From contig DUFR01000025.1 of assembly GCA_013331845.1 (NCBI GenBank), positions 1,784-43,002 of the forward strand: a stretch of DNA of 41,219 bases, written 5' to 3'. Below the pieces are notes generated by a model. That model searched no databases and was not told where the DNA came from. It worked only from the letters and a program-made list of their open reading frames with translations. This document shows positions 5,294-41,185 of this stretch, piece by piece (within the stretch, counting starts at the first letter, position 1; each line of letters opens with the position of its first letter). Source of the stretch: Candidatus Aenigmatarchaeota archaeon (GTDB taxonomy: Archaea > Aenigmatarchaeota > Aenigmatarchaeia > GW2011-AR5). A program made the position numbers and the translations under genes.

Positions 5294-5299
5294 ATTGGA

Positions 5300-5434: not shown

Positions 5435-5550
5435 CATAGCCCTTTAGGGTATGAATGAAGATAAGAGGAAACGAAAGGAGGCGCCAGCCGCTTTAGCGGC
5501 TGGAGGCTCCACTCCTTACAACTCTACAAGGAGGAATTAAAAATTCCTCC
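5435..5550 (+). other. Hairpin cluster in the 5.3-5.6 kb gene-free stretch
   Basis: The 5294-5722 stretch has no convincing gene. It holds four hairpins: CATA(g)CCCT/AGGGTATG at 5435-5453; CCAGCCGCT/AGCGGCTGG at 5484-5503 (9 bp); CTCCTT/AAGGAG at 5512-5533; GGAGGAATT/AATTCCTCC at 5530-5550 (9 bp, AAA loop). The last two share AAGGAG and cannot form together, as in a two-state switch. The first, followed by GAATGAAG, looks like right-end hairpins of IS605/TnpB-type elements, so part of this may be a transposon remnant. Both readings are tentative. Confidence 0.45.
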
Positions 5551-5642
5551 AATATAGCTTAATTTTTCAGAAATTATGTTTATATTCAGGAAAAACCAAT
5601 AAAATCTTAGTGCATTATCAACAACCATCATTAATAGTGTGG

Positions 5643-5724
5643 ATGTTGGGTATTGCTGACGGTGGTTGGAGATGTCAGTATATATGAGACTCCCAACTGT
5701 TGACAGAGGCGGTATACCGAACAT
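5643..5724 (+). promoter_or_regulatory. Structured leader overlapping the start of the giant surface gene
   Basis: ATGTTGGGTAT (5643-5653) pairs with ATACCGAACAT (5714-5724), 10 of 11 bases, placing the start codon (5723-5725) in the 3' arm. Inside, TGCTGAC (5654-5660) pairs with GTCAGTA (5674-5680, one wobble), and other partial pairings exist. The stretch also holds a 14-codon ORF beginning at ATG 5643 and ending in TGA. It could control access to the start codon. Confidence 0.45.
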
Positions 5725-11700: not shown

Positions 11701-14700
11701 ACCAGTTGCGAGCACTTTCATACACTCATTATCAGCTCCAGACAACGTGATAAGGAGTAGCGTAGCAACTACAGATGTTGTTGTGACAAATCCTGACAGC
11801 ATGGCAAGGTTTGTTAATGTAACCTGCAGTTTCAAATATATGGCCAACGGGCAGCTGATTACAAGAGTAAATTCATCAGGCTGCATTAATGCTGTTGCTG
11901 GTGATACAACAGTTCCTGTTAATATGTATGCCAGCACTCTTGGCGAATGGAACGTAAGCAGCTGCACTGTATATTCGTCTTCATCATCGAACTGCGCCAG
12001 CCAGTCGCGCGATAATGTTTCTCTTGACACTGCGAGCTACATGGTGATCCTGCCTAGTACGGTTTTCATTGAGTCTGTTAGCGTGCCTCAGACACCTGTG
12101 CTGAACAACTCTCTGGTTAGCATACCGGCTGTTATTAACAACCCTACAAATGATGTTGCTTATGTCACTTTGAACTGCGGAATGACAAAGCCGCAAAACG
12201 GCGGCTCGCTGATCGTCACAGACCAAAACGGTGTTGATTCTGGCAGGACGAGTTCGTTCACGCTTGACACCACAACTGACCGCGTCGGCATGTGGAACAT
12301 AAGTTCCTGCAGTGTTTCGGTCTCACCAGTTCCGGACTTCTCGAACAGCGCGGTTGTTTTTACGCGCAACAATGTGGGCGCATTCAATGTTATCGCCAGA
12401 ACCAATCTTACAATAACAGACGTAAGCCCGCAGGGTACAGTCCAGAACAACACATTCACCAGTATAAGCGTTTCTATTACAAACCCTTCCAATACGCGTT
12501 ATGGGCGTGTTTCATGTATTGTAAGAGACCCAATTAATAGAGCTCATGTCAACAACTCTGCTTGCCTGCTGGTAACAAGCAATGCGCAAAGAGTTTTCGC
12601 CGTCAACTTTTTCGCAAACAGAACAGGTGAATGGCACATCCCACAATGCTCTGTTTACGGCTCAGCTTATTCTGACTGTTCCCAAGCGTCACTGCATGAT
12701 ACAAAAACTTTTGTTGGCAAGTCGTTTAATTCAACAATTACCTGCACTAATGGCTTGTACAGCGCGACCAATCCGACAACAGGCATATGCCAGGAATTTG
12801 GCAACAACTGTAACATACCTGCCGGCTGGATAAATATAACAGCAGGTTCGTGCCCGGCTGGTCCTGGTGTTGTTTACATATCGTCGGTCACTGTTCCAAC
12901 AAGCGACGTCGTAAATAATTCCAATGTTAACATAGACACACTTGTGGCAAATCCAGTAAATGATGACAGGTTTGGCCAGGTCAGCTGCACTGTCAGAAGC
13001 CCGAGCGGCGCGACACAACTTCTTACTTCGTCCTGCCAAGGCATACCCGCAATAAACACGCGAACATACAGAATAACACTCCCTGTGAATACAGTTGGCA
13101 TTTGGAACGTTACGAGATGCAGTGTCAATGCTTCCACAGATTGTGCCTCGGTAACGCTGCAGCACACCTTCAATGCGAGCAAGACAATAAATGTCATACG
13201 CGGCATCAACCTTTCATTTGTTTCATTCTCACTGCCGCCGGACGCAGTGGTTAACAGTGTTGTGCAATTACAGGCTGCTATGAGAAACCCTTCAGACGCA
13301 GCGAGATACGCGCGCGTGTTCTGCAGCTTCAGGAATCCGAATAATCTGGATGCGTCAAATACAACAGCATGCCTGCAGGTGGCAGGAACATCCACGTCGA
13401 CATTTGGAGTAAACATACACACGAATATTGTTGGAACATGGAATGTTCAAACGTGCACATTGCGCGGCTCCCTTGATTCAAGCTGCGCAGAACTTCATGA
13501 CACTGAATCCAACATAGGAGCGTTCAACATAACTGCTGTATCACCACCGCCGGCGCTTGCAGAACTTTTCATAAGCAACATAAGTGCCAGCTCAGCAGCA
13601 CAAAATGACAGCCGCGTAAGCGTTCTGGTTTATGGAAGAAACAGCAACCTTGCCAACAGCAGCTATGCTCATGTGGGATGTGATTTCCTGAACCCGCTTG
13701 GCGGACTGACAAGGCAAACATCCTCATGCATGCAGGTAACTGCCAATAGCACGGTACGCTTCGGTGTTTCACAGCTGCTTAACATACTTGGAACATGGAC
13801 TGTACGAAACTGTTTCATAAACGCGTCAAACACGAACAATTGTGCACCTTCAGCACTTAATAATGTTTCAACTGAATCAAGATCAATAACAGTCTCGCTC
13901 CCTCCAAACCTTTATATCACAGGTGTCAACGCGCCTGACGCTGATGTTGTAAATAACACGAATGTAAATATAGATATTTTTGTTAACAATCCTCTCAACG
14001 ACGACAAATATGGCTTTGTAAGCTGCATAATAGAGAACCCTGCTGGCATTAACCAGACCAAAACCACACCATGCTCTTTTGTGCAGAGGGCCAACAACAA
14101 GAGATATAATGTTTCTTTATTTGCTGGAGTTGTCGGCTCGTGGAACGTGAGGAACTGTTCTGTTAGATCTTCAGCAAGCGCCAGCTGCGCCAGCTCCTCG
14201 GTTGCAGGAGAACTTATAAACGGCGACACATTCAATGTGATACGCGGCTACAACCTTACCCTTTCGTCATTGTCTGTGCCGCAATCTGTTTATGTAAACC
14301 TGCCTTTGTACGTGGCATACACGCTGAGAAACCCTTCAACCTCTGACCGGTATGCCCGGGTTACATGCACCATGACAAAGGGAGGACAGAGTGTTGTTAA
14401 CACGTCATCATGCATGACCATAGGACCTGAGTCATTCATTGATAATAACGCCGTGTTTACGCCTGCTTCAACAGGGACGTGGTCTGTTACTTGCGTGGCT
14501 GAACGTTCTTTCGACGCAGGCTGCACTTCTCTCGAGGCGCACGACAGGAATTCAGAAAACTTTAATGTAACGACTCCGCCTGACCTGTTCATACAATCAA
14601 TAGATGTGCCATCACTTGCACCCAAGGATTACGAAGTCTTTACAACGCTGAGAATAAGGAATCCTGCAATTACAAACGCTTACGGCTTTGTCCAGTGCAC

Positions 14701-15733: not shown

Positions 15734-16285
15734 ATGAAAAGCTCTGTTGAAATGCTCAAGGAAACACTGCGAAAGGGGTATTGTGGTACTACAATATCCT
15801 TAGCAGCTAGCAGTATGACGCAAGTAACCAGAAGCGCGAAGCGCTTCGTTCGGTTACGCCATACTGCTCCTGCAGTGTTTCCACTAAACTTTCAACAGAG
15901 CTCTAAGAAAGGAATTTCCCTGCCGACAAACATGATAATAGTTGTTGTGATAGCAGCGCTTGTGCTTGTTGCACTCGGCGCGTTTTTTATCACAACATCC
16001 GGTAGCAGCATGTCAGATGCCGAAGCCCAGAGAATTTTTGCCAACGGCTGTGTGCAATATTGCAAGCCTGGCCTGTACGACACTTTCACGGCTGCCTTCA
16101 GGGCTTCGCAGAACGATCCGAATTTCATTAAGGCGTGCACGAGGTTTGGTTACGGCGATGGGCAGAATGCGAACAGATGTCTTGAAAAGTGCCCTGGCTG
16201 CAATGTTATTCTTGACAAGAATGAAAGAGATGCAAACGGTGGGATGGATCGTATTTTTAACACGCTAACTTCAACACCATCATAA
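15734..16285 (+). CDS. Pilin-like protein with a 53-codon structured insertion in its leader
   Basis: As it stands the frame gives 183 residues. The first four codons (MKSS) and codons from 58 on (KKGISLPTNMIIVVVIAALV) together form a class III-like archaeal prepilin leader with a KKG cleavage site; between them lie 53 codons (15746-15904) that form a large inverted-repeat structure. The mature part (about 105 residues) has the hydrophobic helix, SGSSMSDAEAQRIF and four to six cysteines, and resembles the second pilin-like protein (37481-37909). Signal processing would be abolished if the insertion were translated, since the hydrophobic helix would be internal. It follows the giant gene by 24 nt and precedes a small membrane gene by 17 nt. 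Confidence 0.75.
   Translation: MKSSVEMLKETLRKGYCGTTISLAASSMTQVTRSAKRFVRLRHTAPAVFPLNFQQSSKKGISLPTNMIIVVVIAALVLVALGAFFITTSGSSMSDAEAQRIFANGCVQYCKPGLYDTFTAAFRASQNDPNFIKACTRFGYGDGQNANRCLEKCPGCNVILDKNERDANGGMDRIFNTLTSTPS
15740..15902 (+). other. 163-nt multibranched inverted-repeat element in the pilin leader
   Basis: Perfect outer stem of 13 bp (AGCTCTGTTGAAA 15740-15752 with 15890-15902), 7x7 internal loop, perfect second stem of 11 bp (GGAAACACTGC 15760-15770 with 15872-15882), then two branches: a hairpin at 15775-15800 (about 10 bp) and a compound hairpin at 15810-15867 with stems of 8, 6 and 7 bp capped by a GAA loop. AGCTCT occurs at both ends as a 6-nt direct repeat (15740-15745, 15899-15904). 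It keeps the reading frame and has no stop. Confidence 0.8.
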
Positions 16286-22261: not shown

Positions 22262-22390
22262 ATGATTACAAAATATACTACGGTGAGATTAGAAAAAGAA
22301 ACCGTAAAAATGTTGCAAGAAGTTGGCAAAAAGAAAGAAACTTATGATGAAATAATCAAGAGGCTTATGAAAAATGCAAACAACGTATAA
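22262..22390 (+). CDS. 42-residue RHH/VapB-like protein upstream of tnpB
   Basis: A short ORF translating to MITKYTTVRLEKETVKMLQ and a helical remainder with KKETYDEIIKRLMK, the pattern of small ribbon-helix-helix or VapB-type proteins. It overlaps the tnpB start by 17 nt, in another frame. ATTTATA at about 22231-22238 lies about 25-30 nt upstream, giving a leaderless-type promoter that would drive both genes. It may regulate expression of the element. Confidence 0.6.
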   Translation: MITKYTTVRLEKETVKMLQEVGKKKETYDEIIKRLMKNANNV

Positions 22391-23555
22391 ATTCAGGCTC
22401 TATCCAACAGGGGAGCAAGAGCAAAAGTTACTATGGACTCTCAATAAATGCAGGTATGTTTATAACTTTTTACTCAGTGAAATGAATCAACAAAAAGTCA
22501 TTGACAAGGCGCAATTACAGGAAATGATAGTTGACCTAAAAAGAATAGAGCCTGACTTGAAAAATGTTCATTCAAAGGTTCTGCAATACGAAAACTACCG
22601 CTTATTCTCAAACCTTCGTGCATTATCACAAACAAAGAAAATGGGTAGAAAGGTTGGAAGCATGAGATTCAAAGGCAAAAATTGGTTCAAAACTTTCTCC
22701 TACAACCAGAGCGGGTTTGCCGTCATGCAGAACCGGACAAGATATGACAAATTATGGCTGTCAAAAATAGGAGAGATTCCTTTCATTATGCACAGGGATA
22801 TAGAAGGAAAGATAAAACAAATCACAATAAAGCACCACCCTTCTGGAAAGTGGTACGCTTCAATAATCGCTGAAACTAAAACTGAAATTCCCGAAACAAA
22901 GAATAAAGAGAAAGTCGGTTTGGATTTAGGAACAATGAACTATGTCTATGACAGCGATGGCAATCATTCCGACAATCCCAAGCATCTTGACAAGTCTCTG
23001 GGAAAATTACAAAAAGGGCAAAGAAGATTATCAAGAAAAAGGAAAGGATCACAAAACAGAAATAAACAAAGGATTTCTGTGGCACGGGTACATGAAAAAA
23101 TAATAAATCAAAGAGATGATTTTCTGCACAAACTCTCTCGGTATTATGTTGACAAGTACGGCTTCATAGCAGTAGAAGACTTGCAGATAAAAAATATGGT
23201 AAGAAATTGCCATCTGGCAAAATCAATTTCAGATGCGTCATGGTCAAAGTTCATCCAGATGCTCGAATTCAAGGCTGAGAGAGCTGGTGTTCGAGTGGTG
23301 AAGGTTGAGCCAAGAGGAACAACACAAATTTGTTCAAGTTGCGGAATTAAAGTCCACAAAGAATTATGGAACAGGACGCATAAATGCACTTGTGGTCTGG
23401 AAATAAACAGGGATTACAATTCCGCAATGAATATACTAAAAAGAGCATTAGGGCAGGAATTGTCCAAATCTACGCCTGTGGAGATTGAGCCACTACTCAG
23501 CAATGAGCAAGTTTGGTCAGAGAAGCAGGAAACCCCTTGCGAAAGCTATGGGTAG
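22374..23555 (+). CDS. tnpB: TnpB, RNA-guided endonuclease of an IS200/IS605-type element
   Basis: A 393-residue OrfB/TnpB protein. The RuvC-like catalytic residues are present: D184 (VGLDLGTMNY), E268 (IAVEDLQIKNM) and D347 (NRDYNSAMNIL). The zinc-finger has C320-x2-C323 and C338-x-C340. The N-terminal helix-turn region (YKFRLYPTGEQEQKL) is typical. TnpB proteins cut DNA under guidance of an RNA from the element's right end. No tnpA is present, so it is an IS1341-like solo tnpB element, which may be moved in trans. All key residues are intact, suggesting a functional nuclease. Confidence 0.95.
   Translation: MQTTYKFRLYPTGEQEQKLLWTLNKCRYVYNFLLSEMNQQKVIDKAQLQEMIVDLKRIEPDLKNVHSKVLQYENYRLFSNLRALSQTKKMGRKVGSMRFKGKNWFKTFSYNQSGFAVMQNRTRYDKLWLSKIGEIPFIMHRDIEGKIKQITIKHHPSGKWYASIIAETKTEIPETKNKEKVGLDLGTMNYVYDSDGNHSDNPKHLDKSLGKLQKGQRRLSRKRKGSQNRNKQRISVARVHEKIINQRDDFLHKLSRYYVDKYGFIAVEDLQIKNMVRNCHLAKSISDASWSKFIQMLEFKAERAGVRVVKVEPRGTTQICSSCGIKVHKELWNRTHKCTCGLEINRDYNSAMNILKRALGQELSKSTPVEIEPLLSNEQVWSEKQETPCESYG
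23532..23553 (+). ncRNA. Right-end hairpin of the tnpB element (candidate guide-RNA scaffold end)
   Basis: ACCCCTTGC (23532-23540) pairs with GCTATGGGT (23545-23553) at seven of nine positions around a GAAA tetraloop and covers the end of the tnpB reading frame. In characterised TnpB elements the omega RNA comes from exactly this place, with the guide taken from the sequence just beyond. The structure is seen; the RNA is inferred. Confidence 0.45.
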
Positions 23556-24990: not shown

Positions 24991-25985
24991 TAGTTAGATA
25001 AGGTGATTAAAATCAAAAAGATAGAAATTGCTAATGAAGATCTTATTGATTTGTATAATAAAGGGTTAAGTTCAATTAAGATAGCCAAGAAATATAATTG
25101 CTCAAAAAGAACCATATTAATTAAATTACACAAAATTGGAATTGACCTAAGAGATCCTGGATGCTTAAAGGTTCGACCTTTCAAAGAAGAACTAGAAAAA
25201 TTATATTTAGATAAAAATTTACCTACAAGAAAGGTTGCTGAGATATGTCAATGCAGTAGGTCAACAGTTCATAGAAAATTAAAGATGTATGATATCGAGA
25301 GACGTGGTTTGGCGGATGCAGAAATAAAATATCCTAGGAAATCTTTTAACGGAAGTTTAGAAGAAAAATCTTATCTAGTTGGCTTTTCTCTAGGTGACTT
25401 AAGAGCAAGAAAAATTTGGAAAAATGGAAAAACTATAAACATTGCGGGCGGAAGCACACAAATAAATCAAATTGAATTATTCGTTTCACTTTTCTCCAAA
25501 TATGGTCGAGTTTGGCATAAGCAAACAAAGAGCGGTAGATATAACGCAGAAGCTTTTTTGGATATGTCTTTTGAATTTTTTCTTGAGAGAAAGAAAAATT
25601 TAAAATGGATAAGTAAAAATCCGAGTTATTTTCTGGCATTTCTGGCTGGATTTACAGATGCCGAAGGGTCTATATTTTTGTCTAATAGACAAGCAGTTTA
25701 TAGTATAGGAAATTATGATTTAGAAATTTTGATTTTTATACAGAAAAATCTAGAAAAATATTATGGAATCGAGTCAAAAATATATTTAGATAAAAAAATA
25801 CGTATAACATCTGATGGGTATGAACGTAATAGTTTTTATAAAATTCTGAGAATTCAGAGAAGCCGTTCTTTAGTTAGTCTATTTGAACTTCTTGAAAATA
25901 ATATAAAACATCCAAAAAGATTAAACCAACTTTATTTAGCTAGAGAGAACCTAAAAACGAGGGGATTAATTTCAAAGAAAATAGA
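24991..25985 (+). mobile_element. 995-nt intervening sequence in metG encoding a homing endonuclease
   Basis: It begins TAGTTAG, ends AAAATAGA, and contains one ORF for a LAGLIDADG endonuclease. Its length is not a multiple of three and the endonuclease ORF is in another frame than metG, so it is not an intein. The first bases (ATAGTTA, 24990-24996) are a perfect complement of the start of the second exon (TAACTAT, 25987-25993), and AGA is at both borders. It is visibly more AT-rich than trpS and most of metG. No archaeal bulge-helix-bulge motif with canonical 3-4-3 geometry was found. Confidence 0.55.
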
Positions 25986-25989
25986 GTAA
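25003..25989 (+). CDS. LAGLIDADG homing endonuclease
   Basis: A 328-residue protein. Two helix-turn-helix motifs come first (about 13-45, SSIKIAKKYNCSKRTIL; about 70-95, PTRKVAEICQCSRSTVH), then two LAGLIDADG motifs: YLVGFSLGD (D132) and LAFLAGFTDAEG (E221), both with the catalytic acid, so a monomeric double-motif enzyme. It cuts a long asymmetric site and drives copying of the intervening element into empty alleles. The start is probably the GTG within AGGTGAT at 25001-25007. The end overlaps the metG second exon by a few bases. It sits where the metG N-terminus should be. Confidence 0.85.
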   Translation: MIKIKKIEIANEDLIDLYNKGLSSIKIAKKYNCSKRTILIKLHKIGIDLRDPGCLKVRPFKEELEKLYLDKNLPTRKVAEICQCSRSTVHRKLKMYDIERRGLADAEIKYPRKSFNGSLEEKSYLVGFSLGDLRARKIWKNGKTINIAGGSTQINQIELFVSLFSKYGRVWHKQTKSGRYNAEAFLDMSFEFFLERKKNLKWISKNPSYFLAFLAGFTDAEGSIFLSNRQAVYSIGNYDLEILIFIQKNLEKYYGIESKIYLDKKIRITSDGYERNSFYKILRIQRSRSLVSLFELLENNIKHPKRLNQLYLARENLKTRGLISKKIE

Positions 25990-29376: not shown

Positions 29377-29489
29377 AAGTAAGGCAAGGACGCTAGTGCA
29401 TATACGTAGCTTTACTTAGGAAAGGTTGTAACATGAAGTGCCTATACTGCAAAACACTTCTTTTCAACACCTGCGGTGCTCGAAAATGA
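29377..29489 (+). promoter_or_regulatory. Structured leader and 18-codon ORF before the second surface operon
   Basis: AAGTAAGGC (29377-29385) pairs with GCTTTACTT (29409-29417). A ribosome-binding stretch (AGGAAAGG) then precedes an 18-codon ORF (29433-29489) MKCLYCKTLLFNTCGARK whose TGA overlaps the ATG (29486) of the large gene. Within it GAAGTG (29435-29440) pairs with CACTTC (29455-29460) and CACC with GGTG (29468-29478). ATGAA occurs at both 29433-29437 and 29486-29490. A TATA-like aacttaatatat lies near 29338-29350. Confidence 0.45.
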
Positions 29490-32400
29490 AAAAATTCATA
29501 GTTCTAGTTATCTGCGCATTGATCGGAATGCTGAGCATACCGCATGTCAGTTTGTGGAATTTCTCTGTTGGGAGCGAGACGGTGAACGCGGCGACGACAC
29601 AGAAGACTTATCCATCTAATTCTCCTGTTGTTGGAAGTGTGTGTGGCGTGGCTGGAAAAGATAAATGTTTATCCAGCAATGGCCAGTTTAGACTTGGTTA
29701 TTGTCAAGTTCCTCAATGGAAAATTTATATTCCTCTTCCAGACGAAAGTTATGATAGTTGTTTAAATCGTTGTAACCCGCGGTATGATTGCATAGAACCT
29801 TATATTGAATTAACAGCACCAATAAGCGAAACAGTCCCACGAGGAACGGTCCCATTAATAAAATCAGTGACCAATTATCCAGCTAGTGAAATATCTTCTC
29901 ATAACATAGAAGTTAACCCCGGAAATAATGGATGGACTACGATAACATGCTCTAGTAGAGCAGTTTGTGAACATAGTAATGCATATACGAATTTAATTGA
30001 TGGTACTACTGTTCAGTTTTATTCTGAAATCAGTTTGAATGATGGAACGTATATAAGGAACCCGAAGACAGGTGAATATACTTACACGCTTTCTTCAGGA
30101 ACGACATGCACAACACCTTCGCAATGCACAACTCCTCCCGCAAATGAATGTAATGGCAATGTACGAACATACTACACATCACCTGGCACGTGCACTGGCG
30201 GCAGTTGCACTTATTCACCACAAACAGAAACATGTACAACCGGCTGCACTCTGAGTGCGTGTGTAGGTGGTGCAACGCCCGCCCCGTCGCCAGGCACTGG
30301 ACTAACATTTAATCCGGCGTCTCCTATAACGGTTGCTGTCGGTGAGACATCGAGCGCAGTAACAGTTACGGGCGCGACAGGCGCGATTTCTACTGATTCG
30401 TTAACGCCTTCCGGCAAAGTAACTGTGAGTTACTCAGTCACATCGTTTACTGTTAGAGGAGATGCAGCAGGCACGGCTTCGCTCGTGATAAAAGATTCCT
30501 CTAACAAAAAGACGTCGCCTATTACAATTACTGTCAACCCTGCTGGCGGCGGCGCGCCAGGAGGATGGGGTGTACAAATAAATCCAGCTAAGCCATCTGC
30601 AGGTCAGCAATTTACCATAACTTTTAGTATTCCGTCAACTTCTGTAACTTCGTTATTATACCAAATAACAGGAGGACCAACTTCTGTGTCTATTGGAACT
30701 GCCTCAGGATGTCTTTTAAATTCAAATAATGGAATGTCATGCACAGCTTATATTGGCGCGCTTTCTGCTGGTACATACACCATTAGTAATGTCAATTATA
30801 AAGAAGGTAATAATATTCTAAAATTTTTTCAATTAAGTCCTAATCCCTATTCTTTCGAGGTTACTGCATCAGGCACGCCAGGAACAAGCACAAACCGGTG
30901 CTGTGTTTATCTTCGCGGAAGCGAGTATGAATATAAAAACGACCAGACAGAAGCCAAATGTGATGAAGAAGGCGGCTCATGGAAAACCACGAGTTGTACC
31001 AACGCCGGTAAAGAACAATGCAATGATTACTGCCGATTGAACCAGTTCGGCACCAGCGGCACCTGTTCGCTCAGTCCTGGAACGCAATCAAGGACTGACA
31101 AAGTCTGCTATGGCAATGAAAAATGTGTGTGTCAGGGCACTGCACAACAGGACGCTGCGAATGTGCCTTGCGCATCAGCGTGCTACACGGCCAGCGGTGT
31201 TACAGGCTATCTGTCGCCTGCCTACAGCACTACTGCATCATCGTTTCCTATAGGGCAGTGCACTGATAATCCACAAGCTCTTTACATGGCAATTGGCGTT
31301 GCCTCGGCTGTTGCCACGAGCGGTGCGTCATCTTCACGCCAACCTATTTCAATTGGTAATCCCGGGCAGCATGGGTGCGGCTTGGCTGAGACGTGCTGGT
31401 GCACATTTGTAAATACCGCTTCTTTTACAGCTAACACGCAAACAGCAGCGACCCTTCCTGGAACACAGACCGCAGGTACATGGACTCATCCAAATGACAT
31501 TACAGCCAGCGCGCCACGCGCAACGCCAAATGATCATGATTGCAGTGCAGCATCGAATGCGACAATAACAGCGTCGCTCGGCATTGCTGGCACAACGCAG
31601 ACGAGTGGCACTTCATCAACAACAGTGTCGCGGCTGATACAGGCAGGCGAAACTGTGACGATAACAGGAAATGTCGCAAAGTTGTCAGACACATGCAATG
31701 GCTACAACTATACCTGCACAACGATGCAGCAGCTTGGGTGCGAATTACATAACCGTGTTTTGTGGAATTCACTTAGTTACAAGGACTGTCCTGCAGGCAC
31801 CACATTGATTCCAGGTTCAGCACAAGGCGATGGCATAACACCAAACTGGAGACTGATAGCTGCTGCAGTAATTATCGCAGTGACATGGGGGGCGGCCGCG
31901 GCAGCAGCCGGGCCTTTAACTTCCGCTTTTTATACTGGTCAGACGGTTCAGGGTGCAGTATTTACTGGAGCTGTTTCAAGTGCAGTAGGTGCAGCAATTA
32001 ATGGTGCAAATTGCGGCGGAAACAACGCAAATGCAGGTACTGGCGTGGCTAATACAATAAACCAACAATGGCAGGTGGCAGCAGCTCAGGCGGCACGATC
32101 AGCAGCAGCGCAAGCAGCAGGAGATGCAGCAGCTCAGGCAGCAGCAACCGCAGCAATAAAAGCAGCTGCAGTACAAGGGGCGTCACAAGCAGCTGTAGAA
32201 GCAGCAGCAGCGCAAGCAGCGCAAGCAGCAATACAGACAGGAGCATCGTCAGCAGCAGTGCAGGCAGTAGCAAACGCAGCAGCTACAGAAGCATTAAAAT
32301 CAAGTGCAACAGAAGCAACTGTAAACGCAGCAGCTCAGACAGCAGCAAAAGGATCGTCAACAGCATTTAGTCCATATGCAGGATTTGCTGGCATTGGAAC

Positions 32401-32743
32401 TTCTCTTGCATTAAATGCATTGCCAACATGTCCTACACAAGATGAAATTATCGGTTGTTTCTCGGTGTGCGGCAAGACCTATAATACAGCGGTGGCTGCG
32501 TCACCGCTTTGCAATCAGGGCGGGCCTGTCATTGGATTCACCGCCGCGACATATCCTTGCGCCACTGGAACCTGCGGCGCATATGCCAGCAAGCGCGTCA
32601 AGATAGATATACGGGGCCCGGATGGACTAACAGCCATAGAAGATTATGTTACAACAGATTCGCTGGGAGATTTCAGCTACACATTCCAGGCGCCGGCTGC
32701 TGATGGAGAGTTCACTGCAATCGTCAGCGTGCCGAGGGATTAA
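29486..32743 (+). CDS. Large secreted Cys-rich surface protein with Ala-rich helical region
   Basis: A 1085-residue protein from ATG 29486, giving the signal peptide MKKFIVLVICALIGMLSI. It has Cys-rich N-terminal modules, a Big_2-like beta domain (about 275-350, FNPASPITVAVGETSSAVTV), a second beta domain, further Cys-rich modules, a hydrophobic Gly/Ala segment (about 800-855), a strongly Ala-rich stretch (about 860-965) built almost only from GCA codons, and a C-terminal beta domain (VKIDIRGPDGLTAIEDYVT). No C-terminal anchor is seen, unlike the neighbouring large proteins, but the internal hydrophobic segment could anchor it. It is 11 nt upstream of the next large gene, hence an operon. Its exact role is unknown. 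Confidence 0.75.
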   Translation: MKKFIVLVICALIGMLSIPHVSLWNFSVGSETVNAATTQKTYPSNSPVVGSVCGVAGKDKCLSSNGQFRLGYCQVPQWKIYIPLPDESYDSCLNRCNPRYDCIEPYIELTAPISETVPRGTVPLIKSVTNYPASEISSHNIEVNPGNNGWTTITCSSRAVCEHSNAYTNLIDGTTVQFYSEISLNDGTYIRNPKTGEYTYTLSSGTTCTTPSQCTTPPANECNGNVRTYYTSPGTCTGGSCTYSPQTETCTTGCTLSACVGGATPAPSPGTGLTFNPASPITVAVGETSSAVTVTGATGAISTDSLTPSGKVTVSYSVTSFTVRGDAAGTASLVIKDSSNKKTSPITITVNPAGGGAPGGWGVQINPAKPSAGQQFTITFSIPSTSVTSLLYQITGGPTSVSIGTASGCLLNSNNGMSCTAYIGALSAGTYTISNVNYKEGNNILKFFQLSPNPYSFEVTASGTPGTSTNRCCVYLRGSEYEYKNDQTEAKCDEEGGSWKTTSCTNAGKEQCNDYCRLNQFGTSGTCSLSPGTQSRTDKVCYGNEKCVCQGTAQQDAANVPCASACYTASGVTGYLSPAYSTTASSFPIGQCTDNPQALYMAIGVASAVATSGASSSRQPISIGNPGQHGCGLAETCWCTFVNTASFTANTQTAATLPGTQTAGTWTHPNDITASAPRATPNDHDCSAASNATITASLGIAGTTQTSGTSSTTVSRLIQAGETVTITGNVAKLSDTCNGYNYTCTTMQQLGCELHNRVLWNSLSYKDCPAGTTLIPGSAQGDGITPNWRLIAAAVIIAVTWGAAAAAAGPLTSAFYTGQTVQGAVFTGAVSSAVGAAINGANCGGNNANAGTGVANTINQQWQVAAAQAARSAAAQAAGDAAAQAAATAAIKAAAVQGASQAAVEAAAAQAAQAAIQTGASSAAVQAVANAAATEALKSSATEATVNAAAQTAAKGSSTAFSPYAGFAGIGTSLALNALPTCPTQDEIIGCFSVCGKTYNTAVAASPLCNQGGPVIGFTAATYPCATGTCGAYASKRVKIDIRGPDGLTAIEDYVTTDSLGDFSYTFQAPAADGEFTAIVSVPRD

Positions 32744-32754: not shown

Positions 32755-35700
32755 ATGGCGATTCAAAAAATTAAAGGGAAAAGTATGGGTACAGTAGGAT
32801 TAGGAATATTACTGATAACCCTAACCTTTGCATTATCTTTAGTTCTTTTATCATCAGAAACCTTGGCTTCGCTGACGTTCACAGGCCGCGACTGCAATGG
32901 CAACAGCATCTGCGACGTGATGACTTCTTGTAACAGCGGCGGGTGCACTAACAGCTATGAGAACTGCCAGTCCTGTGGATATACGACAAAAGTATGCCCT
33001 AATGGCATTGCAACTGCACCCAAAACTTGTAGCAAGCTTTCTGGTTCGCCACAGTGCATGACGGTGACGCCTGTCTGCACCGGCAGCCAGAACACAACAA
33101 CAGACCCCTATGTTATGCTTACCTTCAACGTCTTTACCAGAAAGAACCTGATTGTCAACGTCACGCCTGCAACCCAGCCAGGGCTTGCCGGTTCCACACT
33201 TAACTATGTTATAGGACTGAGAAACAATAACCCGAAGACGCTTGTCTTCCAGATAAACAGCCAGATACCGGCAAACTGGCAGATAAACATACCTGCCCAG
33301 ACGTCATTGAGCGAAAACAGCGCAAGGGAAATACCTTTCCGCGTCACCTCTAACGTGTCAGCAAGCGACGCAGCATATCCTATAATTATAGGTTTGTTCA
33401 ACACAGAGCTTAATCTGTACGGCACGGTTACAGCTGAATATGTTGTCGCTTCCCGCGGCGCACCTTCCATTTCTTCCAACCCAAGGAGTCAGGAGGGCTA
33501 TCCTGGGGCAGCTTTAATGTATAATGTTTCTGTTACAAATAACGATCCCATTGGCTTTGATGCAAGCTCTGTATCACTTAGGGCAAACTCTCCTGGCGGT
33601 TTTAATTCTGTCTTTACTCCTAACAACATCAGGCTTGCACCTAGAGCGACAGGCTATGTAAGGCTGGATGTCACGTCACCGATGAACGCTACAGAGCAGA
33701 CATACTCAATAACACTTAACGCAACGTCCAACAGCCTCTCTTCAAGCGAGTTAATAGAGTACAAAATTAATTTCTGCGGCAATACTGTTTGTGAAGTGGG
33801 TGAGGAAGGCAGCTGCTTGAAGGATTGCCCGAATGACCCGTACATTAATTGCAACGGCCGCTGCGAACGCGAGCTTGATGATGGATTGAACTTCGCAGCA
33901 ACGGTCAGCGTGCCTTTCAACCAATTCATAATTTGCGGCAGGAACGCGACAATATCCGGGTGCCTACAGGCTGCCAGGTCGACGGTTAATGTGTCGAACA
34001 CGTGCGGCATCGGAAGGCAGTGCATATGTAAATCCTCACAACCTAGCTGTGATGCGCGGTGTGTTGACTCGACAGGGGTTTATTATTTACTTGCTAATGG
34101 CACGACAAACGTGAGGAGCATTGCAAACTACAGCTTTGCCTGCCCTTTTGTCAACCTTCCGGAAATAGTTGCACTGCGTGATAATTTCACTGCAGCCAAA
34201 GCACAATATGAGATGGCGCGAAGTGCGCTCCTTGAGACGACCAGGAACATGACTGCACAAGGACGCTCTGGAATCCAGCCGTGCATTGACGCACTTTCTT
34301 CCATGACAACTAATCTTGGTGACGTTATTAGATACTTCAATGATGTCATAGCGTGGCCTGGAAAGCTCAACACAACAGCTGCGCGCGGCCGGGCGGTTAC
34401 AACAAGAACAACCATAGAGGGCATTTACAATACCTATTGCCGCGGCGCTTCTGGCTTATTGCAGGTGGATACCATAGCAGCAGGGCCGGTTGAAAAGGGT
34501 ACTACAGGAAGTTTGGATGTAACTATTCGCAATATTGGCAACATAGGATACTATGGATATCCCCAGTGCGACCTGACAGGCGCGGCTGGCGAAAGAACAA
34601 GCGTGAACGGCTCATGCACTGCCATAGGCGGGCAGCAGTTCCAGACATTCAACTTTGATTTCAATGCTACAACAGCAGGCAGATGGGCCAGCCGCTGTAG
34701 AGCCCTTGGTACGCTTTCATCAGACTGCGTAAATGCTTCTTTGCACCATGAACTCACTGGCCAGTTCAATGTTTCAACGCGGGACACCTATGTTGTTGAT
34801 GTTTCTGGCGCATGCAACCAGACATTAAATTGCTCGGTGCGCACATCGCAGCCCGGATGCGGAGGGTGTAGTATTTCAGGCCAGGAATGCACCAGTGTAG
34901 ACAGTGTTAACAACACTGATTTGTTTGATTGTCCCAGAGCATCTTACGGCACATTCAATCTGACGGGCTATGTCCTTGATAATAATCGCTGCAAACCTGT
35001 TGCGCCTGTAGAAAAAAGTGCTTCAGTTCGATGCGCCGGCTGTGGTGACAACGTAATTGATTCTGGCGAACAATGCGAACTGCCTTATACTGATAACAAC
35101 GCCAAATGCACACAGTCAAGGAATACATGCGAAAACAAGATTTACGGACTTCGCGATGCGTTGGGCTTTTGTGATATCGGATGTGGCTGCACATATGACC
35201 AGTATCAATTCAGCTGCACAAGAGGCCAGTGCGGTGCCCTGTGTGCTGACGGCGAAACGCGCACAGTTATATTAAATACGACATTAGGAAGCTGTTCCTG
35301 TACTCAACAGTGCGGCTCTGGTTGTGACTGGGACTCATGCTATTGCGAGCCTAACACAGGAGGCGGCGGCACCGGCACGATTACAGGACCTCCGTCAATA
35401 ACAGTTTCCCACACGCCGCAGACTCCTACAAACGGACAGGTTACCTTGACAGCAACAGGCGCTAACCTGACGCAGATAGAAATATATGTGGACGGATTTG
35501 TTGTAACCAGCTGCAGTTCACCTCCGTGCACGATAAGTGCCACATACACAGCTGGCGTTCACAGCTATTATGCGAGGGCAAGCAATTCGTTTGCCGTAAG
35601 AACAGACCCTGCTGACGGTGCCAAATCTTTCGCCATCCCATCAACCACAGGCACTACAACGGTTAATGTCACAAACACAACAACAAGTGGTTCGGTGTCG

Positions 35701-37299
35701 CTTACCATATCCCACACACCAGCAACTCCTACAACCGCGGACACAGTGACTATAACAGCTTCTGCCAGTGTAAATGCCAACAGGGTAGAAATTTATGTTG
35801 ACGGCGTTCTCTCAAAAAGGTGTACGGATTTCATATGTTCACTTGAATCCACATACTCTGCCGGTACTCACAATTACTTTGGCAGAGCTTATGATTCGAC
35901 AGGCTCGGTCACAAACCCGGCAACAGGCACAAAAAGCTTTACAGTGACGCAGGCAGCAGGTGCACAAAATGGCACGTCAGGTTCACCAGGCGCCGGCACT
36001 ACAAACATCGTGCTTGATGTGAGCAGTTCACCGATTAATCCGACTACACGGGATTCGGTCAGGATAACAGCAGTTGCCAATGGTCCCAACAGCTTCCGCG
36101 AAATTAATATTTACATAGACGATGCGCTAAAGAAAACGTGTACGAATTCTCCGCCTTCACAACCGTGTGCCTGGACGTCCTTGTATTCACAGGGCGAACA
36201 TTCGTATTATGCTTTTGTTACAGATGTAAGCGGCGCTACAAAGAGAGATCCTGTTAGCGGATCGAAAACCTTCACAGTGGCAGGTTCTTCTGTATCCCCG
36301 ATACCAGGACCAGCTCCGCCAGCACCCGGCCCGGGTCCGACACCGCCACTGAAGACAACCGCTCCGGTATGTCACGCAAAAATAGATGCGAAAAACTGTA
36401 CCTATAATTCTGCCACCAGACGCTATGACATTTCTCTAACAGGCTCTTGGGCCAATGGAACGCATGCACACTGGGACATATCAGACGATCCTCACATACA
36501 AATTTACCTTTATAACTACACCCGGATAAAACCTGTTGCCACACCTGGCTGGAACACAGTGAAGATCGCTGTTCATAATGTAAATGACACTCTGCTATGT
36601 TCTGACACGTCTACTGTATACTGCGGCCCGGGCACGTCTACTGGCAAGAATGTTGATGTGATATTTGACGTCAAGGATGTTCTGAACACAGGCATGAATA
36701 CGGTTAAGATTATAGTCGTTCCTTATGTTGACATCAGCTATATTCGCGTCTATAGCTACACAGAAAACACGCTTAATGTGTCCAGACCATGGGTCGAGGG
36801 CAATACGAGCCTTGCTGGCATATCAGGCCCGGTAGCTGTGGTAGAAAATAAAACCTATGATGTCTACGCGATGAGCACCAGCCTGGCTGCGACAAAGAAT
36901 GTTTCAATGGTGTATACTCTCCAGACGAGCAGACTTGGCAAATACACACTCATCGCGTATGCAAACTACTCTGGAAAATCAGAAAGATACACAAAGACGA
37001 TAACAGTTACCAGCTGCCACGATACCTATAGAGTATATGCGCGAAATGATAATGACAATACAATCTGCATGCAATTTGACACGCGTTGCGACGTGCCTGT
37101 TGTTGGCTGGACTATAGTTGAAGGATGCGTTGCTCAGCAACCACCCACGCCTTCGGTGGGTTTGGATTTGACATGGATAATTATTTTACTAATAATTATT
37201 TTGCTTGTCGCTCTGGCCTACAGATACCGCGACAGGATACGCGACAGAATCAATAAACCCAGGAGAATTCCCAGAGAAGAGATGCCCAGCTTTGAGTAG
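32755..37299 (+). CDS. Large membrane-anchored surface protein with Ig-like repeats
   Basis: A 1514-residue protein with an N-terminal hydrophobic helix (GTVGLGILLITLTFALSLVLL) after a KGKS sequence, two NEW3-like beta domains, a CGNTVCEVGEE Cys module, a Cys-rich plus helical module and one Ig-like repeat shared with the giant protein at 5.7 kb, Cys-rich modules, three Ig-like repeats (about 880-1165, each with VEIYVDG, a Cys pair and HSYYA), a Pro-rich linker, a C-terminal beta domain, and a terminal membrane helix (LTWIIILLIIILLVALAY) with a basic tail ending EEMPSFE. It has many N-glycosylation sites. It would be a surface adhesin like its paralogue. Confidence 0.8.
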   Translation: MAIQKIKGKSMGTVGLGILLITLTFALSLVLLSSETLASLTFTGRDCNGNSICDVMTSCNSGGCTNSYENCQSCGYTTKVCPNGIATAPKTCSKLSGSPQCMTVTPVCTGSQNTTTDPYVMLTFNVFTRKNLIVNVTPATQPGLAGSTLNYVIGLRNNNPKTLVFQINSQIPANWQINIPAQTSLSENSAREIPFRVTSNVSASDAAYPIIIGLFNTELNLYGTVTAEYVVASRGAPSISSNPRSQEGYPGAALMYNVSVTNNDPIGFDASSVSLRANSPGGFNSVFTPNNIRLAPRATGYVRLDVTSPMNATEQTYSITLNATSNSLSSSELIEYKINFCGNTVCEVGEEGSCLKDCPNDPYINCNGRCERELDDGLNFAATVSVPFNQFIICGRNATISGCLQAARSTVNVSNTCGIGRQCICKSSQPSCDARCVDSTGVYYLLANGTTNVRSIANYSFACPFVNLPEIVALRDNFTAAKAQYEMARSALLETTRNMTAQGRSGIQPCIDALSSMTTNLGDVIRYFNDVIAWPGKLNTTAARGRAVTTRTTIEGIYNTYCRGASGLLQVDTIAAGPVEKGTTGSLDVTIRNIGNIGYYGYPQCDLTGAAGERTSVNGSCTAIGGQQFQTFNFDFNATTAGRWASRCRALGTLSSDCVNASLHHELTGQFNVSTRDTYVVDVSGACNQTLNCSVRTSQPGCGGCSISGQECTSVDSVNNTDLFDCPRASYGTFNLTGYVLDNNRCKPVAPVEKSASVRCAGCGDNVIDSGEQCELPYTDNNAKCTQSRNTCENKIYGLRDALGFCDIGCGCTYDQYQFSCTRGQCGALCADGETRTVILNTTLGSCSCTQQCGSGCDWDSCYCEPNTGGGGTGTITGPPSITVSHTPQTPTNGQVTLTATGANLTQIEIYVDGFVVTSCSSPPCTISATYTAGVHSYYARASNSFAVRTDPADGAKSFAIPSTTGTTTVNVTNTTTSGSVSLTISHTPATPTTADTVTITASASVNANRVEIYVDGVLSKRCTDFICSLESTYSAGTHNYFGRAYDSTGSVTNPATGTKSFTVTQAAGAQNGTSGSPGAGTTNIVLDVSSSPINPTTRDSVRITAVANGPNSFREINIYIDDALKKTCTNSPPSQPCAWTSLYSQGEHSYYAFVTDVSGATKRDPVSGSKTFTVAGSSVSPIPGPAPPAPGPGPTPPLKTTAPVCHAKIDAKNCTYNSATRRYDISLTGSWANGTHAHWDISDDPHIQIYLYNYTRIKPVATPGWNTVKIAVHNVNDTLLCSDTSTVYCGPGTSTGKNVDVIFDVKDVLNTGMNTVKIIVVPYVDISYIRVYSYTENTLNVSRPWVEGNTSLAGISGPVAVVENKTYDVYAMSTSLAATKNVSMVYTLQTSRLGKYTLIAYANYSGKSERYTKTITVTSCHDTYRVYARNDNDNTICMQFDTRCDVPVVGWTIVEGCVAQQPPTPSVGLDLTWIIILLIIILLVALAYRYRDRIRDRINKPRRIPREEMPSFE

Positions 37300-37338: not shown

Positions 37339-37480
37339 ATGAATAGAAAGTAATGGTAATTGAATTAAATCACGCGCTAAGGTGGAGTTCGGACCAAGGC
37401 TAGACGCTAACCGAACATCGTTCTTAGTTGCTATTGGGAACGTTAACTGAACATTGCCCCTAGCGATAGAGTTGATAAAA
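37339..37480 (+). promoter_or_regulatory. Structured leader of the second pilin-like gene
   Basis: After ATG AAT AGA AAG TAA at 37339-37353 comes a branched structure: outer stem CGCTAaGG (37375-37382) with CCccTAGCG (37457-37465), hairpins GTTCGG/CCGAAC (37387-37392, 37411-37416) and GTTCTTAG/TTGGGAAC (37420-37427, 37434-37441, with wobbles). ACGCTAACCGAACATCG and ACGTTAACTGAACATTG are direct repeats differing by three C/T changes. The gap 37300-37480 holds no other gene. Confidence 0.45.
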
Positions 37481-37909
37481 ATGCAGCTTCCGATAAAAGC
37501 GATTGTTGTTATGGTGATTCTTGTGATCGTTCTAGTTGCGTTATCGAGCTTTCTGCTCCAATCGTCAGGCGGCAGCATATCAGGCGTAGAAGCTGAAAGG
37601 ATATTCAATACGAAATGCCTTGCCTACGGCAAACTCAACTGCGACTGGAAGGTCACTTATGAACCTGATTTTCCTGATTACGTAAAAGCGTGCCGCATAC
37701 TTTATGGACAGTGGCGCGAGGCATTTTCCTGTCTCTATACACTATGCAATCAGTGCTACGAGACAGCAGACTTGAAATGCAGCGGGCTCTGCAACATCTG
37801 CAAAGGTCATGAAAACGCCGGCGTGGACAGGCAAACGTGTTGTTTGCGCTACCAGACAGAATGCTCTGGATCTGCGGTAGACTGCAGCAAAGCGTGCCCT
37901 ACACAATAG
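37481..37909 (+). CDS. Pilin-like protein, second copy
   Basis: A 142-residue protein starting MQLPIKAIVVMVILVIVLVA, aligned with the first pilin-like protein from ISLPTNMIIVVVI onward; SGGSISGVEAERIFNTKC matches SGSSMSDAEAQRIFANGC there. The mature part is very Cys-rich (about fourteen), suggesting many disulfides. A classical K/R-G leader is missing at this start; cleavage after IKA is possible, or an upstream exon-like MNRK could supply it. It follows the large anchored gene in the same direction, as the first pilin-like gene follows the giant gene. Confidence 0.7.
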   Translation: MQLPIKAIVVMVILVIVLVALSSFLLQSSGGSISGVEAERIFNTKCLAYGKLNCDWKVTYEPDFPDYVKACRILYGQWREAFSCLYTLCNQCYETADLKCSGLCNICKGHENAGVDRQTCCLRYQTECSGSAVDCSKACPTQ

Positions 37910-38164: not shown

Positions 38165-41100
38165 TCATTCATCGGTATTACTAAGACTTGGCTGGTTAAT
38201 TTTTATTGTTTCTCCAAGTTGTGCTGCGAGTTCTGTTGGTGAGGTTGGGTAGTATACATCATAATCATGAAAATATTCTGGTAAATTCTGGGGAACTTTT
38301 ATTGTGTTTCCTGTATATTTGGCTATGTTTACGTTCTCCACCATGGAATTTATGTTAGCAGTTACCCACATATATTCTTCTTTTTTAAGTGAAATGCCAA
38401 CTATGCTGCTCATGCTGTCCCCTGCTTCTATTCTTGCTGTATTATACTCTGTAACATCATTTTTGTCAAACGTTCTGTAAAGTCTTTCCTGACTAGGTCT
38501 CATCACTGCTCTTATCTTGAAAAGATTTCCGTATTTTTGAAGGAAGGACTCGATTGATTCGGTTCTTACTGGTTGACTTTTAGGCGCGTGATACAGGTGG
38601 GTTATTATATGATTATTACCGATTTTTCCCAGGTAAAGCGCAACATGGGTGAAGTCTATCTCAGGTGTGTTGCCACTCTGGATACCCAATATCTTATCAG
38701 AATGGTAGTTGCTTTCTGAATAATAAAATCCTATTACATCTCCAGGCAGCATGGAATCGTAGTTGTTGAATATTTCATTATTTCTCCAGTCAAACCATCT
38801 GACAGAACCGCCGTGATTTTTTATGTTGGATGGCATATTCCAGGCGTCTCCACCCACACCTGTTATGAAGTGCTTTCCTATGCCAAATATGTATTCATGA
38901 ACACGGGTGACATATTTCGCACAATTAACTCCTAGGCAAAGCGGATCGTTCAAAACGAATCCCTTATAACCTTTTTTGACCGCCTCGAGTCTCGAAGATA
39001 TTGTTCCCTGATCGAAAGTGGTGCTTCTTCTTTCACTTATTCTGCATATGGTTGGAGTGGCAGTACAGGCACCGTTCTCCCAGTAGCATCCCTTTTGTGC
39101 GCATTTTGTTGCACAGTCTCCTAGTCCGAGGAGGTTATAGCCCCACTGCGAAAGCGTGCCAGAACATATACTTCTACAAGCTTGCGACTTCGCAGTTTTT
39201 CTATTTTGTATTCCAGTAGCAAGACCTGTGACTGATATGCCTTCTGCTGTTTGTGTGCTTTCAGCCATTTGTGAGCTTTCAATTATTATGGTGGGATTGC
39301 TTTCATCACCCATATATTGATTATCAGCGACTGCATTGCCTTCTGTCTGGTACGGATCTTTTACCGTGACAATCGTGCCAGACTGAATGTTTTCAAAGAT
39401 GTTTCTTATTTCTTCTGATTTTACTGCGTTTCCACAGTCATGCTCTGGAGGAGCGACGCTGTGCATGCCTATACAGACATCACTACTTGTTTGCAGCCCA
39501 ATCCAGTAATCGCGGATGCCGGTGTTGATGGGGTCAATATTACATTGAGGATTTAATATTGTGCCTTGGTCATCGGTGTATATGAAGTCTTCGTCATTGT
39601 TCTGTATGTTTATCTTTTCCGAGATTGTGTACTGGCCTTCCTGAAGAACAGAACTTTGTTGAGCCAAACTGGCATCTAAAGAGGTTAAATCTGGCTGTGG
39701 CAGATCAGGAGCGCTAATATCACTTGTATCCATTCCTGTTATGGGAATTGGTTTTGCTGTTACGTAGCCCGTTGATGTTGCAGGAAAGCCACATTTGATG
39801 TTTGCAGGTCCAGGACAAAATCCCGAGTAAGGAAATGTATATCCTGGTGTGTCTACAGGCAAGCAAGTGCCTATTGCACCGTAAGCAGTGCACGACTGTT
39901 CTGTGAAAGTGCTGTCAGGCACACAGCATTTGATATTACTGGAGCCTGGACAAAGTCTGTCATAAAATGTGCATCCTGACGCAGTTGCATATTGACATGT
40001 GCCTGCCAAACCTTCTGGTGACGTGCATACTTGTTCTATATATTGAATGTCACTGCTTGTCTGTGTATTTGTCGAACCGCTTAAACAATTTCTCCATTTC
40101 AGATAATAATTTTTTACCGTTGAAAAATAGCCTGTGTTCGCTTCGCTTGCACAATTTCCACTGTTGTAGGCTTTTATTGCCCCGTCTAAATTTTCACAGC
40201 GGTTCATGAGATCTTTTACATGATTTGCAAGAGCATCTATACTTTTTTCTGGATTAAATCGCTCATCCTGATCATATTTGCAGTTATTGGGCGTGCAGGA
40301 ATTGCAACTTGCAACTTTTGTTTTTACAAGGTTTCCTGTAGTTCTGCTTATTGCTTTGCATATGGTGGTTTGCGCATCGGGGCACCATGCCCATTCATAT
40401 CCTCCTGGTGTCGGCGGAACATAAAGGTCATATGTTCTTGCTGTGCTTCCTATGAATTGTGCTATGCCTGCTGATGAACACGGACTCACGGCACGCGGAT
40501 TCCATGCCGATTCTATGGATATTATTCCAGCAATGAGTGCTTCAGGGTTGTCAATGCCAGAGTTGCGCAGGTAATTGTCTGCTGCACTTCTAATGACAGC
40601 AGAATATTGGTTATAACCAGCTACAAATGATGCAGGCAAATTCGAGCAGCTTACCGCTCCGCCGCTGGTAACATAATCAGGATTAACACTGGGTCCGCTA
40701 TCGACCGGGACATAATTGCTATCATCAACAACGATAGGGATATCACTATAAATAATGTCAGGATTGCTGTAAGTAGCAGATTTTGAAACAGTACTGAAAG
40801 CGGCGCTTATTGGGTTTCCGGTCACACCGTTTTCGCAGAGATAAACATCATTGCAATTTGCGGCGTTTGAGCATCCCTCATATTTCTTTATTATTATGAG
40901 CTCTCTCATTTCTCCTGGAGTGCAGATATTGTCGCAGTTGCCTTTGTTCCATATGCAGCCGTCCTGGTTGACGCATTTTTCCAGACTGCAATCCTGGCCA
41001 CACTGCTGGCTGCAGGGTCCATTTGCCTGCACTTCATTTCCATTCATGCTGACAGCTGGTTCCTGACTACCAAAGAAGTTAGTGAACAGTGTGAAGATGT

Positions 41101-41185
41101 CTAAAAAACCCTCGGCGTGAGCTGCCTGAGCTGATAATAAAAGTGTGCTCAATACTAAAATGGTAATGATTAATTTCTTATTCAT
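38165..41185 (-). CDS. Secreted protein with lytic transglycosylase and NlpC/P60-like domains
   Basis: A 1006-residue secreted protein with signal peptide MNKKLIITILVLSTLLLSAQ ending AHA. In order: Cys-rich modules (about 55-120); a lytic transglycosylase (SLT, lysozyme-like) domain (about 185-365) with the catalytic glutamate E225 in GIISIESAWNP and the following SSAGIAQFI; Cys-rich repeats (about 385-475); a middle region; another Cys module (CATKCAQKGCYWENGAC); an NlpC/P60-like amidase domain with Cys in LGVNCAKYV, His in DFTHVALYLG and HIITHLYHA; and a C-terminal part resembling a LysM-like segment. Such enzymes cut the glycan and the peptide of peptidoglycan, which archaea lack. The open frame continues 58 codons beyond the TGA. 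Confidence 0.85.
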   Translation of the reverse strand: MNKKLIITILVLSTLLLSAQAAHAEGFLDIFTLFTNFFGSQEPAVSMNGNEVQANGPCSQQCGQDCSLEKCVNQDGCIWNKGNCDNICTPGEMRELIIIKKYEGCSNAANCNDVYLCENGVTGNPISAAFSTVSKSATYSNPDIIYSDIPIVVDDSNYVPVDSGPSVNPDYVTSGGAVSCSNLPASFVAGYNQYSAVIRSAADNYLRNSGIDNPEALIAGIISIESAWNPRAVSPCSSAGIAQFIGSTARTYDLYVPPTPGGYEWAWCPDAQTTICKAISRTTGNLVKTKVASCNSCTPNNCKYDQDERFNPEKSIDALANHVKDLMNRCENLDGAIKAYNSGNCASEANTGYFSTVKNYYLKWRNCLSGSTNTQTSSDIQYIEQVCTSPEGLAGTCQYATASGCTFYDRLCPGSSNIKCCVPDSTFTEQSCTAYGAIGTCLPVDTPGYTFPYSGFCPGPANIKCGFPATSTGYVTAKPIPITGMDTSDISAPDLPQPDLTSLDASLAQQSSVLQEGQYTISEKINIQNNDEDFIYTDDQGTILNPQCNIDPINTGIRDYWIGLQTSSDVCIGMHSVAPPEHDCGNAVKSEEIRNIFENIQSGTIVTVKDPYQTEGNAVADNQYMGDESNPTIIIESSQMAESTQTAEGISVTGLATGIQNRKTAKSQACRSICSGTLSQWGYNLLGLGDCATKCAQKGCYWENGACTATPTICRISERRSTTFDQGTISSRLEAVKKGYKGFVLNDPLCLGVNCAKYVTRVHEYIFGIGKHFITGVGGDAWNMPSNIKNHGGSVRWFDWRNNEIFNNYDSMLPGDVIGFYYSESNYHSDKILGIQSGNTPEIDFTHVALYLGKIGNNHIITHLYHAPKSQPVRTESIESFLQKYGNLFKIRAVMRPSQERLYRTFDKNDVTEYNTARIEAGDSMSSIVGISLKKEEYMWVTANINSMVENVNIAKYTGNTIKVPQNLPEYFHDYDVYYPTSPTELAAQLGETIKINQPSLSNTDE

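Follow-up and report, generated by a model that had tools for sequence, protein, structure and literature searches.

Why would an archaeon whose genome bears no sign of murein synthesis carry a gene for a secreted protein with the domains of peptidoglycan hydrolases? The question is raised by a stretch of 41,219 nucleotides (hereafter the window) from the assembly of a Candidatus Aenigmatarchaeota archaeon (GCA_013331845.1, contig DUFR01000025.1, positions 1,784 to 43,002 of the forward strand), in which an ATG-started open reading frame (ORF) at 38165-41185 encodes a protein of 1006 amino acids (aa) that combines an SLT lytic-transglycosylase domain with an NlpC/P60-like domain. A sequence-only reading of this DNA had proposed a secreted dual peptidoglycan-hydrolase-like protein directed at bacterial neighbours. 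Our analyses lend sequence-level support to that proposal through the SLT match, a predicted Cys-His-His set with a structure model, phage relatives, and other wall-enzyme domains (YkuD, Amidase_2, M23 and M15) in related proteins of the phylum. We consider it probable that the protein is a secreted, modular hydrolase of bacterial walls, used against bacteria or to feed on them.

Gene product and export

The gene and all features of its product given below lie on the reverse strand. That the product is a single exported fusion protein, as the sequence-only reading had it, was borne out by one ORF at exactly these coordinates with an N-terminal hydrophobic segment. This segment, residues 5-23, is the only one in the protein and is followed by AHA-EG, which together read as a putative Sec signal peptide (aa 1-24, 41114-41185, boundary set by eye) with no later membrane anchor. 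The 42 cysteines (4.2% of the residues) are consistent with an extracellular protein. The assignment of the DNA to an archaeon also held, the same locus being present on a 439,877-bp contig of the archaeon GW2011_AR5, for which NCBI gives no placement beyond unclassified Archaea. Beyond the two domains noticed earlier, we found a LysM-like tail, a YkuD-like segment and several Cys-rich modules.

SLT domain

The SLT domain (aa 177-372, 40070-40657), delimited by Pfam and BLASTP, matched PF01464 with an E-value of 1e-14 and a score of 54.5 bits, above the cut-off of 21.3; the match is split in two by an insert that contains cysteine. What we take to be the two SLT motifs are both kept, namely the predicted catalytic Glu225 (40511-40513), placed by its position in SIESAW (223-228), and AYN at 339-341. 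With the profile cut-off passed and both motifs present, the domain belongs to PF01464 / GH23, and the SLT domain with a catalytic Glu of the sequence-only reading is confirmed. In BLASTP comparisons within a small in-house collection of window and fetched proteins, its best partners were archaeal: a protein of the same family (L029, 40% identity, E 7e-37) and a second one (L030, 31%, E 5e-20). The comparison with the phage collection gave 11 records only, the best at 27% identity (E 2e-5), and no match was found in the plasmid collection at E 0.001. Judged from these comparisons with archaeal, phage and plasmid sequences, in which the best matches were archaeal, the phage match distant and a plasmid match lacking, nothing points to a recent acquisition of the SLT domain. 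SLT domains are present in 46 of the 156 genomes of the phylum (45 of them above the cut-off) and in 17 of 39 high-quality genomes; other fusions in the phylum join SLT to Amidase_2 (one with a weak M23 match), to M15 or to M23.

NlpC-like domain

The second catalytic domain (aa 735-905, 38471-38983) was delimited by an alignment of relatives, an AlphaFold2 model and VIA-align, and is called here a predicted papain-like domain of the NlpC/P60-CHAP kind that is not a member of PF00877. In an alignment of eight rows, where the archaeal and phage relatives share 23-62% identity with the window sequence, the predicted catalytic residues Cys755 (38921-38923) and His847 (38645-38647) are invariant, and the predicted third residue, His863 (38597-38599), is kept in seven, with Ser in the phage protein L075. 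The eight rows thus contain, in order, the Cys, the His and the polar third residue by which the NlpC/P60 superfamily is recognised in the wide sense.

The first relative was found in GW2011_AR5 (genome G002, of the same genus), with 61% identity over aa 701-965; a more distant one, L052, is encoded in genome G138 as a protein of its own, 276 aa long, in which the NlpC-like domain is accompanied by a Pfam LysM domain. A profile of the window, G002 and L052 sequences was used to search IMG/VR for phage relatives, and profile scans confirmed 3 of 38, 8 of 57 and 8 of 86 stretches as relatives, in five protein groups overall. Outside the lineage, the nearest relatives of the domain are these phage wall-hydrolase proteins. 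For example, L063 carries the NlpC-like domain together with Phage_lysozyme (1.6e-21), with PG_binding and SLT matches below their cut-offs, while L062 has no Pfam match at E 0.05. The groups (L062/L074, L063/L064, L071, L072 and L075/L076) share with the window protein, with few substitutions, the motif C-A-x-x-V / G-x-x-G-[ND]-A-W-x-M / GG / GD / H, and SLT-like motifs were seen by eye downstream; unlike the window protein, they have PG-binding-like repeats, and no Cys modules were noticed in them. Elsewhere the searches were negative: the core domain had no INPHARED phage match at E 1, the NlpC-like part gave chance-level matches only in plasmids (best E 7), an initial scan of viral contigs confirmed no relative, and matches to profiles A3 (NlpC-like) and A7 were at chance level only. 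Among the 156 phylum genomes, A3 found three, all with sequences from which it had been built, and PF00877 is present in five. Searches of the PDB by phmmer with the whole protein and its C-terminal part gave weak matches, and a putative lipase (3bzw; E 0.027 and 0.0078) was discarded as a false lead. The bacterial origin that the sequence-only reading had suggested is thus not a simple matter, the best matches of the SLT domain being archaeal and the nearest outside relatives of the NlpC-like domain being in phages.

Structure prediction, which had been named as a check, gave an NlpC-type fold. A first model, built on two sequences, reached a pLDDT of only 41.7, and its fold matches are taken as no more than a hint; a second AlphaFold2 model, with six phage rows added, had a mean pLDDT of 68.5 and a pTM of 0.69, most of the NlpC-like domain lying between 55 and 93 by ten-residue blocks. 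Of 994 chains aligned by VIA-align, 17 reached Z >= 8 before reduction to one row per entry, and all nine rows then listed, up to Z 9.3, are NlpC/P60-type peptidases or a phage endolysin. The best include 8tw1 (Z 9.3, rmsd 3.5, 132 aligned), 4xcm (Z 9.2, rmsd 3.5, 117 aligned) and MepS, 8xup (Z 9.1, rmsd 2.9, 113 aligned). The model therefore appears to share its fold with MepS, the Thermus thermophilus protein 4xcm and the endolysin Lys2972 (Z 9.1-9.3), with the catalytic Cys helix of MepS aligned, whereas the window domain is only 10-21% identical to them over the aligned part and is not recognised by Pfam. In the Foldseek viral library, the second model had one match at E 0.001, a CHAP-domain protein (2e-4).

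Other modules of the protein

Three Cys-rich regions, at aa 58-130 (module N, 40796-41014), aa 380-470 (39776-40048) and aa 665-722 (module M, 39020-39193), recur by BLASTP in other hydrolases of the genus, module N with 44-47% and module M with 40-47% identity; the middle region consists of two modules in tandem, which share 46.5% identity over about 42 aa. Residues 515-615 (39341-39643) align with the intact YkuD (L,D-transpeptidase-type) domain of an L028 protein (Pfam 7.8e-7), and comparable segments of L027 and L028 proteins align there too. This degenerate segment retains His575, no Pfam match to YkuD (PF03734) was obtained in the window protein or elsewhere in its genome (G000), and because the S-x-G-C signature has been lost in the alignment, the segment may be a binding relic. 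The tail (aa 915-965, 38291-38443) aligns with the LysM region of L052, where PF01476 is matched at 7.9e-6 with 26.2 bits against a cut-off of 20.9.

We propose that the LysM-like tail, the Cys modules and the degenerate YkuD-like segment would hold the enzyme on the wall, that the SLT domain would cleave the MurNAc-GlcNAc linkage of the glycan strands, and that the NlpC-like domain would open an amide bond of the stem peptide or of the cross-link. The target would most likely be the wall of contacted bacteria, gripped by the neighbouring surface proteins, with killing, entry or nutrient release as the outcome.

Hydrolase cassette beside surface protein genes

Next to the hydrolase gene, the gene for methionyl-tRNA synthetase (MetRS) is followed, on the forward strand, by genes for two large Cys-rich surface proteins (29438-32743 and 32755-37299), the second with a Big_7 Ig-like match of 2.9e-4 that is below the cut-off, and for a small conserved Cys-rich protein (37454-37909; 9.3% Cys) with a single transmembrane (TM) segment, the convergent neighbour of the hydrolase gene. 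The adjoining adhesin genes of the sequence-only reading are therefore present, and the synteny of both surface protein genes is kept in relatives. Matches to the small Cys-rich protein were found in 36 of the 156 phylum genomes, many of them weak and local. We compared nine genomes (G000, G002, G003, G004, G007, G009, G013, G017 and G018), selected for having this protein together with the second surface protein. The surface protein block is widely conserved, and a hydrolase cassette lies beside it in three of the nine (G000, G002 and G003), each time with different catalytic domains; it was not found in the stretches available for G004, G007, G009, G013, G017 and G018, the last three being short contigs.

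At the G002 site there are NAGPA, YkuD, a protein with TPM, NlpC-like and DUF1615 domains, and a TPM + SLT protein. The genes with SLT (L027:10991-13516) and NlpC-like (L027:8046-10994) domains are adjacent and overlap by 4 nt, and in the window the domains of these two genes are joined, in the same order, in one protein. Domain pairs that occur both fused and unfused usually act on a common substrate, and we count this pair in favour of a joint action on peptidoglycan. The YkuD L,D-transpeptidase-type gene and the NAGPA phosphodiester glycosidase gene of the same site (L027:6610-7470 and 7473-8045) are unusual for an archaeal genome that gives no hint of murein synthesis. The G003 site encodes a TPM + SLT protein, TPM + YkuD with a separate Cys-module protein after it, and a further, lipoprotein-like ORF with a weak DUF1287 match. 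Here an in-frame TAA splits the TPM-YkuD frame ahead of the Cys-module piece (L028:2920-4719 and 4744-6309), which may reflect decay, an assembly error or recoding. To judge from these gene orders, the cassette is best explained as an accessory one, in which catalytic domains would have been swapped between related species at one site.

Target and alternative explanations

Could the archaeon be making peptidoglycan itself? We rejected this, as the only Mur-ligase-type gene in G000, located between ORFs reading as GlyA and ThyA, looks like FolC of folate metabolism (one family tested, in an 84%-complete assembly). As the genome gives no indication that murein is made, the most likely target is the wall of other, bacterial cells. 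Several observations weigh against a working two-enzyme hydrolase. The NlpC-like domain has no Pfam match, with the whole protein searched to E 1 and aa 701-965 to E 0.5, and does not reach the PF00877 cut-off, a family without any match in G000. The Cys and His that the sequence-only reading had named for this domain stood up to the comparison with relatives. Foldseek returned no PDB match at E <= 0.001 for either model, and hhalign with Escherichia coli MepS covered 16 columns only, at the catalytic Cys helix, with a probability of 2.3%. The insert interrupts the SLT domain, that catalytic domains of this family can decay is evident from the YkuD-like segment, and the LysM-like tail has no Pfam match in the window protein itself, so that the wall-binding part, in contrast to the Pfam-supported SLT, rests on a tail that Pfam does not recognise.

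Decay would agree with an adhesin that only grips bacterial walls through worn-out hydrolase folds, and the signature-less YkuD-like segment, the many Cys modules and the large adhesins next door are in line with this; yet Glu225, Cys755, His847 and His863 have all been retained, and a protein selected only for binding would not need them. We regard this explanation as rather unlikely. An archaeal polymer as the target, either pseudomurein, if the host is a methanogen, or the envelope of the producer itself, is suggested by the pseudomurein endoisopeptidase PeiR, which is the third-ranking PDB match of the second model in Foldseek, and many DPANN archaea do live on other archaea. The PeiR match is weak (E 0.09), however, and pseudomurein has no MurNAc, the sugar on which SLT enzymes act. 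A lysozyme domain in the phage relative L063 and the two hydrolase homologues, no more, that PMC12352652 gives among pseudomurein makers also count against it, and the pseudomurein alternative left open by the sequence-only reading has become unlikely. The phage affinities of the NlpC-like domain might raise the suspicion of a binning error or of phage contamination in a metagenome assembly, but the locus occurs with the surface protein and small Cys-rich protein genes in three assemblies, one of them the long GW2011_AR5 contig, and further hydrolases of the genus also carry the Cys modules; on this common synteny we rejected contamination, which is extremely improbable.

A more serious competitor is scavenging, in which the protein would draw amino acids and sugars from the peptidoglycan remains of dead bacteria instead of attacking live cells. 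The same domains and the same secretion would be expected, and dead-cell peptidoglycan has been proposed as an amino acid source for Pacearchaeota in PMC11537232. Against it, although not decisively, the cassette is convergent to surface protein genes, and its patchy, swapping occurrence resembles the arms-race pattern described in PMC12352652; we hold scavenging to be possible, but not the favoured use of the enzyme. Hydrolysis of bacterial walls, the reading we prefer, may be extended tentatively to a contact-dependent attack, in which a vertically inherited surface block (MetRS, the two Cys-rich surface proteins and the small Cys-rich membrane protein) would hold the prey and the site directly downstream would load swappable secreted wall-cutters, at least one module of which would stem from a pool that phage wall hydrolases also draw on. 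By analogy with polymorphic weapons, the swappable modules would be SLT, NlpC-like, YkuD, DUF1615 and TPM, set between common Cys-rich modules. We put this extension forward as a speculative possibility. If catalytic modules are indeed swapped at a fixed site, an arms race with bacterial prey would be indicated.

Comparison with known systems

The general idea of archaeal wall hydrolases is already known from PMC8204110, PMC9723730 and PMC12352652, and the same type of enzyme is discussed in PMC10936187 and PMC11537232. PMC8204110 describes large extracellular SLT proteins of Pace- and Woesearchaeota, which, like the window protein, are secreted and proposed to act on bacterial walls; compared with its fam00969 transglycosylases, the present protein belongs to the GW2011_AR5 lineage, it joins SLT to three further parts (the NlpC-like domain, the degenerate YkuD-like segment and the LysM-like tail), and its gene lies in a cassette of changing catalytic content that adjoins conserved adhesin genes. 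PMC9723730 similarly reports GH23 murein transglycosylases in Woesearchaeota, with 'vampiristic' metagenome-assembled genomes for which predation is proposed, but there the partner is a separate pore-forming toxin gene, and NlpC is absent from the main text. In PMC12352652, modular hydrolases were found in 175 of 3,706 archaeal genomes and, according to its title, kill bacteria; like the window protein they are modular, partly secreted, patchy and domain-shuffled, whereas that study is centred on haloarchaeal M23 homologues of zoocin A, and its main text contains neither SLT nor NlpC nor the string Aenigm. In the literature searched, as far as its available text goes, we found nothing joining DPANN with NlpC, nor did we meet there the fusion, the divergent NlpC-like subfamily common to phages, or the swapping cassette beside a surface block, which we regard as new.

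A further parallel is offered by hydrolases of Gram-positive conjugation systems such as CwlT, in which SLT and NlpC/P60 domains cut glycan and peptide. The likeness lies in this two-domain cutting, and, in contrast to those systems, none of the scanned window ORFs could be recognised as a conjugation gene. On whether DPANN archaea attack bacteria or live off them, a protein predicted to cut both glycan and peptide, encoded beside genes for surface attachment in a genome without signs of murein synthesis, brings a concrete clue, and the fusion protein can be expressed and assayed without culture of the archaeon. The NlpC-like subfamily common to phages may also be a new source of wall-active enzymes.

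Other SLT proteins and features of the window

A second family of SLT proteins, of about 1500-2000 aa in those scanned, has several TM segments in the middle and the SLT domain near the C-terminus (L036:4968-9800, L038:4363-9816, L037:2-4549, L030:8200-14289, L029:6777-11153, L026:6984-7586, L060 and L061). Many of these loci lie beside DUF63 genes, confirmed by Pfam only in L026, and small genes that look lipoprotein-like by eye; the family may represent a conserved surface machine. In other proteins SLT occurs alone (L053:5545-6582) or with M23 or Amidase_2 (L059:8023-10620, L031:690-4145 and L034:3448-6945), with an N-terminal TM segment seen by eye in these four and several single-TM proteins adjoining. 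By eye, the small Cys-rich protein, and likewise the SLT operons of L031, L034, L053 and L059, gave the impression of belonging to a type IV pilus or a secretion system; no pilus or secretion family was found by Pfam in the 10 proteins scanned.

Elsewhere in the window, a 3347-aa Cys-rich surface protein (5666-15709, forward strand) carries, close to its N-terminus (residues 259-387), a domain of the Hint/intein type (PT-HINT 6.6e-10); after it, at 15734-16285, comes a protein related to the small Cys-rich one. An IS605 OrfB/TnpB-like gene (22374-23555) and a gene for a LAGLIDADG protein with a helix-turn-helix (HTH) domain, just upstream of MetRS (25003-25989), are also on the forward strand.

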